DNA of 64,000 bases from an uncultured Flavobacteriaceae bacterium (GTDB lineage: Bacteria > Bacteroidota > Bacteroidia > Flavobacteriales > Flavobacteriaceae): positions 1,751,178-1,815,177 of the forward strand of contig CALSTP010000001.1 of the NCBI GenBank assembly GCA_943789305.1, in the 5' to 3' direction. Below the pieces are notes generated by a model, which was not told where the DNA came from, did not search any database, and saw nothing but the letters and a program-made list of their open reading frames with translations. Numbering within the stretch: the stretch's first letter is position 1; each line of letters begins with the position of its first letter. The position numbers and the translations under genes are program-made. Shown here piece after piece: positions 39,662-59,141 of this stretch.

Positions 39662-40630
39662 TTACAGTTTTCTTTGCATCAATTGCTTAGAAAAGGTTTT
39701 AAAAATTTCTTTCTTTTTGTTCTCAATAGGAAAGTGGTCTAATCGATCCAATGCTTTTTGGTTGTAATCACTTATAATATGTTGAATTTGATCAGCAGCT
39801 CCTGTTGCTAGAAACAAGGTTTTAACTTGTTCTATTTTTTGAGACGGATTGGTAGGGTTAGTTCCAAATAAACTTTCTAAAACCATTTTGTTTTCAGCAT
39901 TACTTTTTTCTAGCGCAAGAAGATAAAGCATTGTTTTTTTGTTTTCAATAATATCACCTCCAACCTGTTTTCCAAATGTTCTAGGATCCCCAAATGCATC
40001 CAAATAATCGTCTTGTAATTGAAAAGCTATACCCAAATCAATACCAAAATCATAGAAAGGCTGACTTGCAGCTTTGGAAACACCACCACATAAAGCCCCC
40101 ATCTGAAGAGAACAACCCAAAAGTTCGGCTGTTTTGTATCGAATCATTTCAATATATTCCTCTTGAGACACTAACAATTGAGTTGGAAAATCCATATCGT
40201 ACTGCTGTCCCTCACAAACTTTTCGAGCAGTCATACTCAACAAAGTGGTCAATTCTTTGAATAGATCTCCTGAATAAACATTGAGGCACTCATAAGCCCA
40301 AACCAACATAACATCCCCTGAAAGAATAGCAGTGTTGACATTCCATTTTTGGTGAACGGTATCTTTACCTCTCCTCAGTGGAGCTTCATCCATAATATCA
40401 TCATGAATCAAACTAAAATTATGAAAAACCTCAACAGATAATGCTGCTGGGAGTGCCTGTTCAAAAGAGTCATTGACTGCATCGGCGGCCAATAAGGCCA
40501 AAACAGGACGTATTCGCTTCCCCCCTATTTCCATAATATAAGATGTAGGTTCATATAAAGTTTCAGGCTTTGGATTGGTTAATTGCTTTTTCATGAATTT
40601 TAAAAAAGCAGATTGATAGTGTATCAGCAC
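39662..40630 (-). CDS. Polyprenyl (geranylgeranyl/farnesyl-type) diphosphate synthase
   Basis: A 322-residue trans-prenyltransferase that extends allylic diphosphates with isopentenyl diphosphate. The first aspartate-rich motif is in HDDIMDEAPLRRG (about residues 96-108) and the second in FQLQDDYLDAFGDP (about 219-232). The residues before the first motif (LIHD) give no strong chain-length clue. The product may feed quinone, carotenoid or undecaprenyl synthesis. The convergent lycopene cyclase ends on the neighbouring base, so the two genes abut with no spacer. Met13 is a possible alternative start. Confidence 0.92.
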   Translation of the reverse strand: MLIHYQSAFLKFMKKQLTNPKPETLYEPTSYIMEIGGKRIRPVLALLAADAVNDSFEQALPAALSVEVFHNFSLIHDDIMDEAPLRRGKDTVHQKWNVNTAILSGDVMLVWAYECLNVYSGDLFKELTTLLSMTARKVCEGQQYDMDFPTQLLVSQEEYIEMIRYKTAELLGCSLQMGALCGGVSKAASQPFYDFGIDLGIAFQLQDDYLDAFGDPRTFGKQVGGDIIENKKTMLYLLALEKSNAENKMVLESLFGTNPTNPSQKIEQVKTLFLATGAADQIQHIISDYNQKALDRLDHFPIENKKKEIFKTFSKQLMQRKL

Positions 40631-52072: not shown

Positions 52073-53848
52073 GTGAAGAAAGAATCCATTTTAAAAAAAA
52101 TCGATACTCCTGAAGAACTTCGAAAGCTTAATGTTGAGGATTTAACTCAACTAGCAAATGAGTTACGCCAAGAAATTATTGATGTTGTATCAACTAAACA
52201 AGGACACTTAGGAGCCAGCCTAGGTGTGGTTGAACTTACGCTTGCACTTCACTATGTTTTTAAAACTCCGATCGATCAACTCATATGGGATGTTGGTCAC
52301 CAAGCTTATGGTCATAAAATCATCACGGGAAGAAGAAATCAATTTTCAACAAACCGCCGATTTGGTGGACTCAGTGGATTTCCGAGTCGAGAAGAAAGTA
52401 TTTTCGATGCTTTTGGAACGGGTCATGCATCAACTTCAATATCGGCAGCTTTGGGGATGGCCTTGGCAAATCAACAAAACAATTCTCAAACTCATATTGC
52501 AGTAATTGGTGATGCTTCTATTGCTGGTGGAATGGCATTAGAGGCACTCAATCACGCAGGAGTATCAGATGCTAATTTAATTATTGTTCTTAACGATAAT
52601 GCCATTGGTATTGATCCTAGTGTAGGAGCTCTTAAATATTATTTTGAGAAAGTCCAAAAGGAATTATCTGATTCCAACAATGTTTTTCAAGCCCTTAACA
52701 TTCCATATAATGGCCCCATCGATGGTCACGACCTGAAAAATCTAATTTCTGCTTTTAAAAAGATAAAAAAACAAAAAGGCCCTCGTCTGCTTCATGTGGT
52801 AACAACCAAAGGAAAAGGTCTTGAACCAGCAGAATTGGATCAGGTAACCTATCATGCTCCAGGAAAATTCGATCGCAAAACTGGAATTCTAATTCCAAAA
52901 ACAGAGCGCCCAACCTCTAAATATCAAGATGTTTTTGGAGAAACTTTAGTAGAACTGGCAAGTCAAAATGAATTCATTGTTGGGATTACTCCAGCAATGC
53001 CAACTGGAAGTTCTATGAAATTAATGATGGAAACATTTCCAAAACGTGCTTATGATGTTGGTATTGCAGAGCAACATGCAATAACTTTAGCAGCTGGCAT
53101 GGCGACCAAAGGAATTCTACCCTTTTGTGCCATTTATTCAACTTTTTTACAGCGTGCCTACGATCAAGTTATTCATGATGTTGCCCTTCAAAACTTGGGA
53201 GTTGTCTTTTGCTTGGATCGTGCAGGTTTGGTTGGAGAAGATGGCCCAACGCACCACGGGGTTTTTGATATTACAATGTTAAGAGCAATACCCAACATTC
53301 GAATTCTAGCTCCAAGAAATGAAATTCAGCTCAGACAAACCCTATACACCTTACAATTGGGTATTAATGGCCCTGTTGCAATCCGATATCCTCGAGGATA
53401 TGGTAAAATATCGGACTGGAAAGTTCCTTTTCAAAAAATCTCATTGTTTCAAGGGAGCTGCCTCAAAAAAGGAAAACAGATTGCAGTTATTTCTGTAGGA
53501 ACAATGGCTGACAATGTAAAGGAAGCATTGGACATCATTGAGGAAGAATGTACACCTGGTCACTATGACCTTGGAAGTATCAAACCTTTAGACCAAAAAC
53601 TTCTACATGATATTTTTGAAAATCACTCTGCAATTATTACAATAGAAGATGGAGCATTAGCAGGGGGAGCAGGAAGTGCAATTTTAGAATGGGCAAACGA
53701 AAACGAACAGCAACATCGAATAAAAAGAATAGGTATTCCAGATCGTTTTATTTCTCATGGAACCACAGCTGAACTTCAAAAAGAAATTGGCATGGATTCA
53801 ATTGGAATCGCATCCTCAATATTAGCTCTTCATCAAAAAATCTCTTAA
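52073..53848 (+). CDS. dxs: 1-deoxy-D-xylulose-5-phosphate synthase (GTG start)
   Basis: A 591-residue thiamine diphosphate enzyme that condenses pyruvate and glyceraldehyde 3-phosphate, the first step of the MEP isoprenoid route. Landmarks are DVGHQAYGHKIITGR (residues 74-88), the ThDP/Mg motif starting GDASIAGGM and ending at NDN, and the transketolase segment GIAEQHAITLAAGMA. The start is GTG, directly after the -7 box. Isoprenoid supply links it to the polyprenyl synthase and lycopene cyclase of this window. The stop interlocks with the convergent Rieske-like gene. Confidence 0.96.
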   Translation: MKKESILKKIDTPEELRKLNVEDLTQLANELRQEIIDVVSTKQGHLGASLGVVELTLALHYVFKTPIDQLIWDVGHQAYGHKIITGRRNQFSTNRRFGGLSGFPSREESIFDAFGTGHASTSISAALGMALANQQNNSQTHIAVIGDASIAGGMALEALNHAGVSDANLIIVLNDNAIGIDPSVGALKYYFEKVQKELSDSNNVFQALNIPYNGPIDGHDLKNLISAFKKIKKQKGPRLLHVVTTKGKGLEPAELDQVTYHAPGKFDRKTGILIPKTERPTSKYQDVFGETLVELASQNEFIVGITPAMPTGSSMKLMMETFPKRAYDVGIAEQHAITLAAGMATKGILPFCAIYSTFLQRAYDQVIHDVALQNLGVVFCLDRAGLVGEDGPTHHGVFDITMLRAIPNIRILAPRNEIQLRQTLYTLQLGINGPVAIRYPRGYGKISDWKVPFQKISLFQGSCLKKGKQIAVISVGTMADNVKEALDIIEEECTPGHYDLGSIKPLDQKLLHDIFENHSAIITIEDGALAGGAGSAILEWANENEQQHRIKRIGIPDRFISHGTTAELQKEIGMDSIGIASSILALHQKIS

Positions 53849-54306
53849 TTCGAAATTATTACAGAATTTCCTCTGTTTTCTGCTTGATAAAAAAGCAAAG
53901 GATAACCTTTTTCAAAATCCTCCTCTGATGGATTAAGTAACTGACCTGTCGCTAAACTGTATTGGAATTTTTCGCATGAACACTCAGCCAACACTCCTTT
54001 GATTTGAGTTTGAGAACAGCTGTTAGGAGGATGATTCGGACAACTAGCTTCCCATGCAAAAAAATTATTACCATTTAAATTAAAAACCAAAACACCTTTG
54101 TGGCCCAATTGGGGAATCAAAACCGATCCACCGGCATATCTCAAGTCATCATATTCGGGTAAATTCAAATTGACTTGAAACCGAAAGGAAAATTCAGGTA
54201 AATAAGGATTTCGTTCCAAATCCGAGCTTGAACAAGAAGTCAAAAAAACAAGAATCCTAAAAGCATTGAAGAACTTCTTTTTTAAAAATAGGGTTAAATC
54301 ACTCAA
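53845..54306 (-). CDS. Rieske-like lipoprotein with atypical cluster ligands
   Basis: A 153-residue product with a lipoprotein-type N-terminus (ILVFLTSC, Cys25) and a Rieske-type fold beginning near residue 60. The ligand region reads CPNHPPNSC followed by CSCEKFQYS. A true Rieske site has CxH then CxxH; here the second histidine is replaced by lysine/phenylalanine, so a classical 2Fe-2S site is unlikely. No ATG is available; TTG at 54306 is the best start. Related proteins of unknown function are seen in Flavobacteria. The promoter region is shared with divergent greA. Confidence 0.75.
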   Translation of the reverse strand: MSDLTLFLKKKFFNAFRILVFLTSCSSSDLERNPYLPEFSFRFQVNLNLPEYDDLRYAGGSVLIPQLGHKGVLVFNLNGNNFFAWEASCPNHPPNSCSQTQIKGVLAECSCEKFQYSLATGQLLNPSEEDFEKGYPLLFYQAENRGNSVIISN

Positions 54307-54311
54307 ATTCT

Positions 54312-54319
54312 TATATTTG
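54312..54319 (+). promoter_or_regulatory. -7 promoter box (TATATTTG) of greA
   Basis: Exact TAnnTTTG match. Transcription would begin near 54324, directly before the hairpin at 54326-54347, and 50 nt before the greA ATG. No -33 TTG is visible. Confidence 0.5.
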
Positions 54320-54325
54320 TATTAC

Positions 54326-54351
54326 AACCCTTCCTTATGGCAGGGTTTTTT
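54326..54351 (+). terminator. Terminator-like hairpin (attenuator candidate) in the greA leader
   Basis: AACCCT (54326-54331) pairs with AGGGTT (54342-54347); inside, CC pairs with GG around a TTAT loop after one mismatch. A run of T follows (54346-54351). It lies between the greA promoter box and the greA start, on the greA strand only; the reverse strand has no T run after the stem. Reading through it is required to make greA mRNA. Confidence 0.65.
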
Positions 54352-54374
54352 ATTAGTAATAAAACTAAGTAAAA

Positions 54375-54851
54375 ATGAGTAAAACTTCATACTATACCGA
54401 AGAAGGTTTAAAAAAATTAAAAGAAGAGCTCAATCATTTGAAAGATATTGAACGCCCCAAGGCGTCTCAAGCCATAGCGGAAGCCAGAGATAAAGGAGAT
54501 TTGAGTGAAAATGCAGAATATGACGCTGCCAAAGAGGCGCAAGGTATGCTCGAAATGCGGATTGCCAAAATGGAAGAGAATTATGCAAATGCTAGGCTCA
54601 TCGATGAGTCCCAATTGGATGTCTCAAAAGTTTTGGTATTATCCACCGTCGAATTAATTAATAAAAGTAATGGGATGAAAATGACCTACACATTAGTTGC
54701 CCAAAGTGAAGCCGATCTAAAAACTGGGAAGATATCAGTAAACTCTCCTATTGGCAAAGGATTATTAGGTAAAAAAGTAGGCGAAATGGCAGAGATAAAT
54801 GTTCCCAATGGAACTATTCAACTCGAGATTACCAAAATAAGTAGAACTTAA
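54375..54851 (+). CDS. greA: Transcription elongation factor GreA
   Basis: A 158-residue GreA that rescues backtracked RNA polymerase by stimulating transcript cleavage. The N-terminal coiled coil carries at its tip GDLSENAEYDAAKEAQ (about 41-56), with the acidic residues that reach the polymerase active site; the C-terminal FKBP-like domain ends VPNGTIQLEITKI. Full length and normal. The leader holds a terminator-like hairpin, suggesting that greA is regulated by premature termination. The HIT gene begins directly after its stop. Confidence 0.96.
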   Translation: MSKTSYYTEEGLKKLKEELNHLKDIERPKASQAIAEARDKGDLSENAEYDAAKEAQGMLEMRIAKMEENYANARLIDESQLDVSKVLVLSTVELINKSNGMKMTYTLVAQSEADLKTGKISVNSPIGKGLLGKKVGEMAEINVPNGTIQLEITKISRT

Positions 54852-57893: not shown

Positions 57894-58049
57894 TATTTTT
57901 TGCCCTTTTCAAAAAGGGTTTGTTCATATTTTTTAATTAATCCCGTTGCCCACTCGTGAAAGCGAGAATTAGTTTAGCATCTAAATGGTCGAGGCCTTTT
58001 ATAAAAAGCCACTTTACTATTGCTAACTACGGAACGTAAACTAACAACA
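57894..58049 (+). promoter_or_regulatory. rpsB leader with three stem-loops
   Basis: The 156 bp between rpsI and rpsB hold three short stem-loops: CCCTTTT/AAAAGGG near 57903-57918 followed by a T-rich stretch (possible weak terminator after rpsI), CTCG/CGAG near 57953-57966, and GGCCTTTT/AAAAAGCC near 57992-58009. Ribosomal operons are often regulated by such leaders. No exact -7 box was found inside. A protein-binding leader for S2 is a guess. Confidence 0.35.
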
Positions 58050-59141
58050 ATGGCAAACATCGACGTAAAAGACCTGCTAAATGCAGGCGTACATTTCGGT
58101 CATTTAACTCGAAAATGGAATCCCAACATGGCTCCTTATATCTATATGGAGCGCAATGGTATCCACATCATTAATCTTTACAAAACTGCAGCTAAAATTG
58201 AAGAAGCTTCAGAAGCAATGAAAAAAATTGCAGCTTCTGGTCGAAAAATCTTATTTGTTGCAACCAAAAAACAAGCCAAAGACATCGTTGCCGAGAAAGC
58301 AGCTGCGGTTAAAATGCCTTATATCACTGAGCGCTGGCCTGGAGGAATGCTAACAAATTTTGTTACCATTCGTAAGGCAGTTAAAAAAATGGCTTCAATT
58401 GATCGCATGAAAAAAGACGGTACTTTTGAAACCCTTTCTAAAAAAGAAAAATTACAGGTTAATCGCTTGAGAGCTAAACTCGAGAAAAATTTAGGCTCAA
58501 TTTCAGAAATGACTCGTCTTCCAGGAGCACTTTTTGTAGTTGATATCAAGCGTGAACACATTGCAATCAAAGAGGCTCAAAAATTAAAAATACCCATTTT
58601 TGCAATGGTAGACACAAACTCTGATCCTAGAGATGTTGATTTTGTAATTCCTGCAAACGATGATGCTTCAAAGTCTATTGATAAAATATTAACTCTTGTA
58701 GCTGAAGCAGTAGGAAGTGGACTTCAACAACGTCAATCTGAAAAAGATGCCGCAAACAAAGGCCAAGAGGAAACCTCACCAAAAGTAGATGCTGCTCCTG
58801 TTGAGGAAGCTAAACCAAAAGTAGAAGCTGCTCCTGTTGAAGATGCTGCTCCTGTTGAGGAAGCTGAACCAAAAGTAGATGCTGCTCCTGTTGAGGAAGC
58901 TAAACCAAAAGTAGAAGCTGCTCCTGTTGAAGATGCTGCTCCTGTTGAGGAAGCTGAACCAAAAGTAGATGCTGCTCCTGTTGAGGAAGCTAAACCAAAA
59001 GTAGAAGCTGCTCCTGTTGAAGATGCTAAATCAAAAGAAAAAGCTGCACCAAAAAAGAAAGCTGCACCAAAAAAGAAAAAAACAGCCGCTAAAACTTCTT
59101 CTAAAAAAGAAGACAAAGCAGCTGATGAAGCTAAATCTTAA
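58050..59141 (+). CDS. rpsB: 30S ribosomal protein S2 with repeated C-terminal extension
   Basis: A 363-residue S2. The start is the ATG at 58050 (MANIDVKDLLNAGVHFGH); an earlier in-frame reading adds only leader sequence. The normal S2 domain ends near residue 228. An extension of about 130 residues follows: an Ala/Pro/Glu/Val-rich part made of an exact 30-residue repeat (2.8 copies), then a Lys/Ala-rich tail (KKKAAPKKKKTAAKTSSKK). Extensions on S2 occur in Bacteroidota, but the exact repetition is unusual. tsf follows 22 bp downstream, the standard arrangement. Confidence 0.95.
   Translation: MANIDVKDLLNAGVHFGHLTRKWNPNMAPYIYMERNGIHIINLYKTAAKIEEASEAMKKIAASGRKILFVATKKQAKDIVAEKAAAVKMPYITERWPGGMLTNFVTIRKAVKKMASIDRMKKDGTFETLSKKEKLQVNRLRAKLEKNLGSISEMTRLPGALFVVDIKREHIAIKEAQKLKIPIFAMVDTNSDPRDVDFVIPANDDASKSIDKILTLVAEAVGSGLQQRQSEKDAANKGQEETSPKVDAAPVEEAKPKVEAAPVEDAAPVEEAEPKVDAAPVEEAKPKVEAAPVEDAAPVEEAEPKVDAAPVEEAKPKVEAAPVEDAKSKEKAAPKKKAAPKKKKTAAKTSSKKEDKAADEAKS
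58779..59027 (+). repeat. Exact 90-bp tandem repeat in the rpsB tail (2.8 copies)
   Basis: Copies start at 58779, 58869 and 58959, the last one cut at 69 bp. The unit encodes PKVDAAPVEEAKPKVEAAPV plus ten further residues. The copies appear identical by eye, which points to recent expansion. Because 90 is a multiple of three, gain or loss of a copy keeps the frame. Confidence 0.9.

Follow-up and report, generated by a model that had tools for sequence, protein, structure and literature searches.

The greA gene of this 2.08-Mb flavobacterial genome is preceded by a compact hairpin and T run that lie directly past its promoter. We read this leader as a promoter-proximal intrinsic terminator that would act as an attenuator answering to the state of RNA polymerase, probably as negative feedback by GreA on its own gene, and put the probability of this reading at about 0.6. 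A leader terminator with attenuation of greA was the core of the original prediction, which is now strongly supported by a conserved, covarying stem and by the lack of a sigma-A box downstream of it; the feedback half of that prediction is an analogy with E. coli GraL (PMC6829880), and termination in the cell and the start site are inferred as well.

The features are as follows, with positions counted in the window, that is, the whole 64-kb stretch of DNA that was analysed:

54312-54319, plus strand: sigma-A -7 box of the greA promoter, TATATTTG, an exact TAnnTTTG (from the sequence; spacing kept in relatives)
54324, plus strand: predicted greA +1, 5 nt past the -7 box (from the F. psychrophilum map)
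54326-54347, plus strand: putative greA leader terminator hairpin, AACCCT-t-CC TTAT GG-c-AGGGTT (folding, covariation, model match)
54346-54354, plus strand: T-rich tract TTTTTTATT after the hairpin (from the sequence; T run conserved in relatives)
54352-54374, plus strand: rest of the greA 5' UTR, without a second TAnnTTTG box (from the sequence)
54375-54851, plus strand: greA, transcription elongation factor GreA, ATG at 54375 (NCBIfam NF001263.0, motif)
53845-54306, minus strand: divergent neighbour, a Rieske-type lipoprotein-like ORF (named from sequence motifs)

The greA leader and its chance background

The GreA ORF matches NCBIfam NF001263.0 at 184 bits (cut-off 145) and carries the catalytic-loop motif GDLSENAEY, read from the sequence. 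In its leader, 6 nt separate the box from the stem, the stem has one internal T/C mismatch, and six T stand at 54346-54351, the first two of which pair with the stem's AA; a further 23 nt lie between this run and the ATG. The promoter map of F. psychrophilum has the -7 box at -12 to -5 (PMC9723704), which would place the greA +1 at about 54324 and the beginning of the stem at about +3. A terminated RNA of some 25-30 nt (about 28) is expected, with its 3' end near 54349-54353; the same 25-30 nt had been predicted, and this is right if the +1 lies 5 nt past the box, as in that map. The hairpin also points only towards greA, as had been noted, for the reverse strand has no T run past the stem. 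The divergent Rieske-like ORF, for which NCBIfam gave no match, has a possible TTG start at 54304-54306 (minus strand) that adjoins the greA -7 box, so that a very short promoter region would be common to both genes.

The leader from 54324 to 54374 folds with -13.7 kcal/mol (z -2.65), and the hairpin by itself with -9.9 kcal/mol. Its absence from the list of a simple terminator scanner is explained by the limits of that scanner, which tolerates no internal mismatch and no more than 8 unpaired bases in the loop. Rfam gave no match at gathering score in the window, and the best permissive matches are far below their gathering scores.

As genome background we used 400 kb of spaced stretches together with the 64-kb window (464 kb), which hold 699 TAnnTTTG boxes on both strands. 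Seven of these boxes, greA among them, have a hairpin of -9 kcal/mol or lower with a T tract, starting at most 12 nt past the box. The other six hairpins are long and irregular, and a compact stem with a T run directly past the box is found at greA only. When the T tract is not required, a hairpin of -6 kcal/mol or lower lies within 10 nt of 15.6% of the 699 boxes, and at least four T directly past the stem occur in only 3/109 of the background box-hairpins. Dinucleotide shuffling of the family's leaders leaves a hairpin with a T tract in 23% at -6 kcal/mol and in 11% at -8; the real leaders reach these values in 100/115 and 90/115. Background boxes and shuffles thus rule out a chance hairpin before greA and, together with its conservation in the family, bear out the claim that the hairpin is real. 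A repeat element is ruled out as well, since the covariance model has one strong match in its own genome: greA is best at 53.9 bits, and the next place reaches 26.9 bits.

Conservation in the family and across the phylum

Within the family, 109/111 greA leaders have a hairpin of -6 kcal/mol or lower within 10 nt of an exact box (17/19 in the genus and 92/92 elsewhere), and at least four T follow the stem directly in 79/92 of the leaders from outside the genus. The arms of the stem vary by genus yet pair: AACCCT..AGGGTT, AATCCTC..GAGGATT, AATCTCG..CGAGATT and AATCCCGT..ATGGGATT. In an alignment of 23 leaders, 96.7% of cells are paired, compared with 35-59% in slid registers, and 0/500 shuffles match its covariation score, so the stem does covary in relatives, as the original prediction had implied that it should. 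A larger alignment of 118 distinct rows has 97.5% of its cells pairing and changes on both sides in seven of eight pairs; the 23-sequence alignment is the cleaner test because the larger one was fitted to the covariance model, and some of its rows are matches from outside the leader that score low or lie on the reverse strand. By these sequence comparisons the stem is strongly conserved and covarying.

It is the promoter, and not the ATG, from which the hairpin stands at a steady distance. Spacing from box to stem has a median of 6 nt (sd 1.9) in the family leaders, while the stem lies 17-172 nt from the ATG, which points to a role at transcription start or at the 5' end of the RNA and rules out translational control by masking of the start codon. 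A second TAnnTTTG between hairpin and ATG is present in 0/109 family leaders, and a downstream sigma-A promoter is rejected on this ground. Transcripts of greA must therefore cross the hairpin, as had been claimed, unless an unusual promoter exists. Neither of the two refutations named with the prediction has thus come about, for the stem is kept in relatives and no sigma-A box lies past the hairpin. In the comparison with relatives, then, the hairpin, its T run, its fixed promoter spacing and its linkage to greA all hold.

Two smaller features of the family leaders lie closer to the gene. Several members have a second stem-loop past the leader terminator and before the ATG, in many cases with T-rich sequence after it; it reads ATGCTGAA..TTCAGCAT in L079, L080, L092, L095-L098 and L103, and GTCCCGA..TCGGGA in L035, L064, L086 and L089, and looks as if a second terminator or a repeat element had been added in tandem. 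Many leaders (L021-L113) also have a conserved AAACGATGAAGTT in the last 13 nt before the greA ATG, without a Shine-Dalgarno sequence. This is possibly a translation signal; the genus of the window departs from the pattern.

Beyond the family, a hairpin with a T tract (-6 kcal/mol or lower, 150 nt) precedes greA in 35/41 leaders from other families of the order and in 43/48 from other orders of the class. Stem and T run are also found in 14/16 further greA leaders, 12 of the 16 being from other classes of the phylum. In one 0.6-Mb genome (L181) the hairpin is not recognisable, as expected of decayed regulation, and one case proves little.

Gene order bears on a further explanation, by which the hairpin would terminate the upstream gene and would have come to stand behind the greA promoter by accident. 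In most loci outside the family the upstream gene runs in the same direction as greA and ends about 70-140 nt before it, so the hairpin there could also serve that gene. The upstream gene is, however, divergent in the window and in 53/53 family loci tested (those with enough sequence, by a longest-ORF rule), and thus no upstream transcript in the family needs termination there; even outside the family, the hairpin is kept beside divergent neighbours in L115, L128, L129 and L138. The divergent order refutes this explanation for the present genome, and we consider it extremely improbable.

Termination or protection of the 5' end

The leader has the make-up of an intrinsic terminator: a GC-containing stem with a T run immediately behind it, both on the transcribed strand. 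At -9.9 kcal/mol it equals the stability of the gene-end terminators of its genome (20 found at 118 gene ends, median -9.85 kcal/mol), its shape is in their range, and one of them, AAACCCTGTTTCGGCAGGGTTT, is close to it in sequence. In relatives, those model matches outside greA that were inspected are mostly gene-end terminators, 7-31 nt past stop codons, and with no gene recurring among them a regulon with a shared leader is rejected.

A stem so near the 5' end may have another use. In E. coli, mRNAs such as that of ompA owe stability to a stem-loop at their 5' end. The greA stem likewise lies a few nucleotides from the predicted 5' end in nearly all family members, at a fixed spacing, and could shield the greA mRNA from 5'-end-dependent decay, in which case its T run would be incidental. 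Unlike the greA leader, however, stem-loops of the ompA type need no conserved T run, and here the run is kept directly past the stem (79/92 leaders, against 3/109 background box-hairpins). A related family has four leaders (L175-L177, L182) whose hairpin lies as far as 26-32 nt past the box and yet keeps its T-rich tail. These shifted hairpins with their T tail, and the likeness to gene-end terminators in stability and shape, favour a terminator over 5' protection, which we regard as quite unlikely. The fixed position near +3 keeps it alive nonetheless, and both roles could hold for the read-through mRNA.

Proposed mechanism and known systems

By the attenuator reading, RNA polymerase would initiate at about 54324, the stem would fold once clear of the enzyme, and at the T run some polymerases would release an RNA of about 28 nt, with the remainder continuing into greA. 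Given the predicted start, the RNA has no more than about 2 nt before the stem, in which the leader differs from a classical attenuator or riboswitch. With no RNA upstream from which an antiterminator or a ligand sensor could form, any switch would have to lie in the behaviour of the polymerase itself, through pausing, backtracking or bound factors. GreA would be the most likely regulator, with more active GreA giving more termination and hence less greA mRNA; this dependence is borrowed from E. coli. It should be kept in mind that a terminated RNA this short is unusual, and that its fixed place close to the 5' end is compatible with a protecting stem-loop too.

The main rival to an attenuator that senses the polymerase is an unregulated damper, a terminator that removes a fixed share of the transcripts from a strong promoter and responds neither to GreA nor to anything else. 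All of the anatomical evidence fits it equally well, and neither a sensor nor an antiterminator can be drawn for this leader. A weaker promoter would do the same work, however, so that deep conservation of a terminator at this single gene suggests control, and the greA leader of E. coli does respond to GreA (PMC6829880). We consider constitutive damping somewhat unlikely.

The closest parallel to the proposed attenuator is GraL of E. coli, which terminates about two thirds of greA transcripts (PMC6829880). GreA reduces the expression of its own gene through GraL in cis, provided that it is catalytically active, since its cleavage activity is needed; the segment from +1 to +18, upstream of the hairpin, contributes to this feedback (PMC6829880). 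The effect of GreA was seen in vivo and was not reproduced in vitro, and an extra factor is assumed (PMC6829880). As a positive control, the hairpin finder used here recovers the GraL hairpin in E. coli MG1655. Like GraL, the flavobacterial leader places an intrinsic terminator between promoter and ATG, on the same strand and for the same gene, next to a divergent upstream gene, and its hairpin shows the compensatory changes in relatives that belong to the GraL type. The GraL hairpin, however, extends from about +19 to +48, past the 18-nt segment, and ends 102 nt before the ATG, whereas the flavobacterial stem would begin at about +3 and give an RNA of about 28 nt, and the upstream 18-nt segment is missing. 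No sequence similarity between the two leaders was seen. We therefore take the flavobacterial leader to work like GraL without classing it as a member, because it lacks GraL's upstream segment.

E. coli GraL acts in trans too (PMC6829880), and the terminated flavobacterial RNA might in the same way be a trans-acting small regulatory RNA, with control of greA secondary. Little of the transcribed sequence is conserved beyond the stem, however, the loop and arms vary between genera, and about 28 nt leave almost no seed, all of which makes such a role very unlikely.

Terminators before greA have been met elsewhere. In the survey of 302 species by Naville and Gautheret (2010), greA/rnk came seventh among the gene families with 5' terminators; the leaders were from Proteobacteria, bacilli and Clostridia, and an antiterminator was drawn for each (PMC2965389). 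The main text of that article names no Bacteroidetes, and the flavobacterial leader has no room for an upstream antiterminator. In F. psychrophilum, structured 5' elements, some of them conserved in the family, are listed for pheA, hisG, ftsY, acsA, alaS and rimP (PMC9723704); the greA leader resembles these as a flavobacterial leader with a regulatory structure, and greA is unnamed in the main text of that paper. Our literature search, which covered the main texts of papers readable without subscription, found no published description of a greA leader in Bacteroidota.

In the feedback of E. coli GreA on its own gene, hairpin and upstream sequence both matter, next to the assumed extra factor (PMC6829880). 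With the leader pared down to little more than promoter and terminator, as in this phylum, these requirements come apart and become testable. A terminator before greA also appears to be recurrent in bacteria, in Proteobacteria, Firmicutes and now Bacteroidota, and this recurrence suggests that the gene, and not a shared sequence, selects for it. We offer more tentatively the wider proposal that GreA limits itself throughout Bacteroidota by means of a minimal, start-locked attenuator that has no leader RNA for sensing, with the state of the promoter-proximal polymerase as the sole signal.

Four other places in these genomes stood out as well. A pheA-like gene of the window's own genome (L222:13399, minus strand), judged by eye to encode prephenate dehydratase, has GAAAGTCCTGATTTAATCGGGACTTTTTTTTT 18 nt before its ATG; pheA is among the genes with a conserved leader in F. 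psychrophilum (PMC9723704). A tyrosine-recombinase-like gene at L266:1211-1256 (minus strand) has the same layout as the greA leader, with TATATTTG, a perfect ACAAACCCAAACTA..TAGTTTGGGTTT stem and a T run close before the ATG. In the window, a polyprenyl-synthase-like gene with a divergent neighbour has a strong hairpin with a T run (-18.7 kcal/mol) about 91 nt upstream, at 40594 on the minus strand, and the ribosomal protein S2-like ORF at 58020-59141 is extended at its C-terminus by a long series of AAPVEEAKPKVEAAPVEDAAPVEEAEPKVD repeats.
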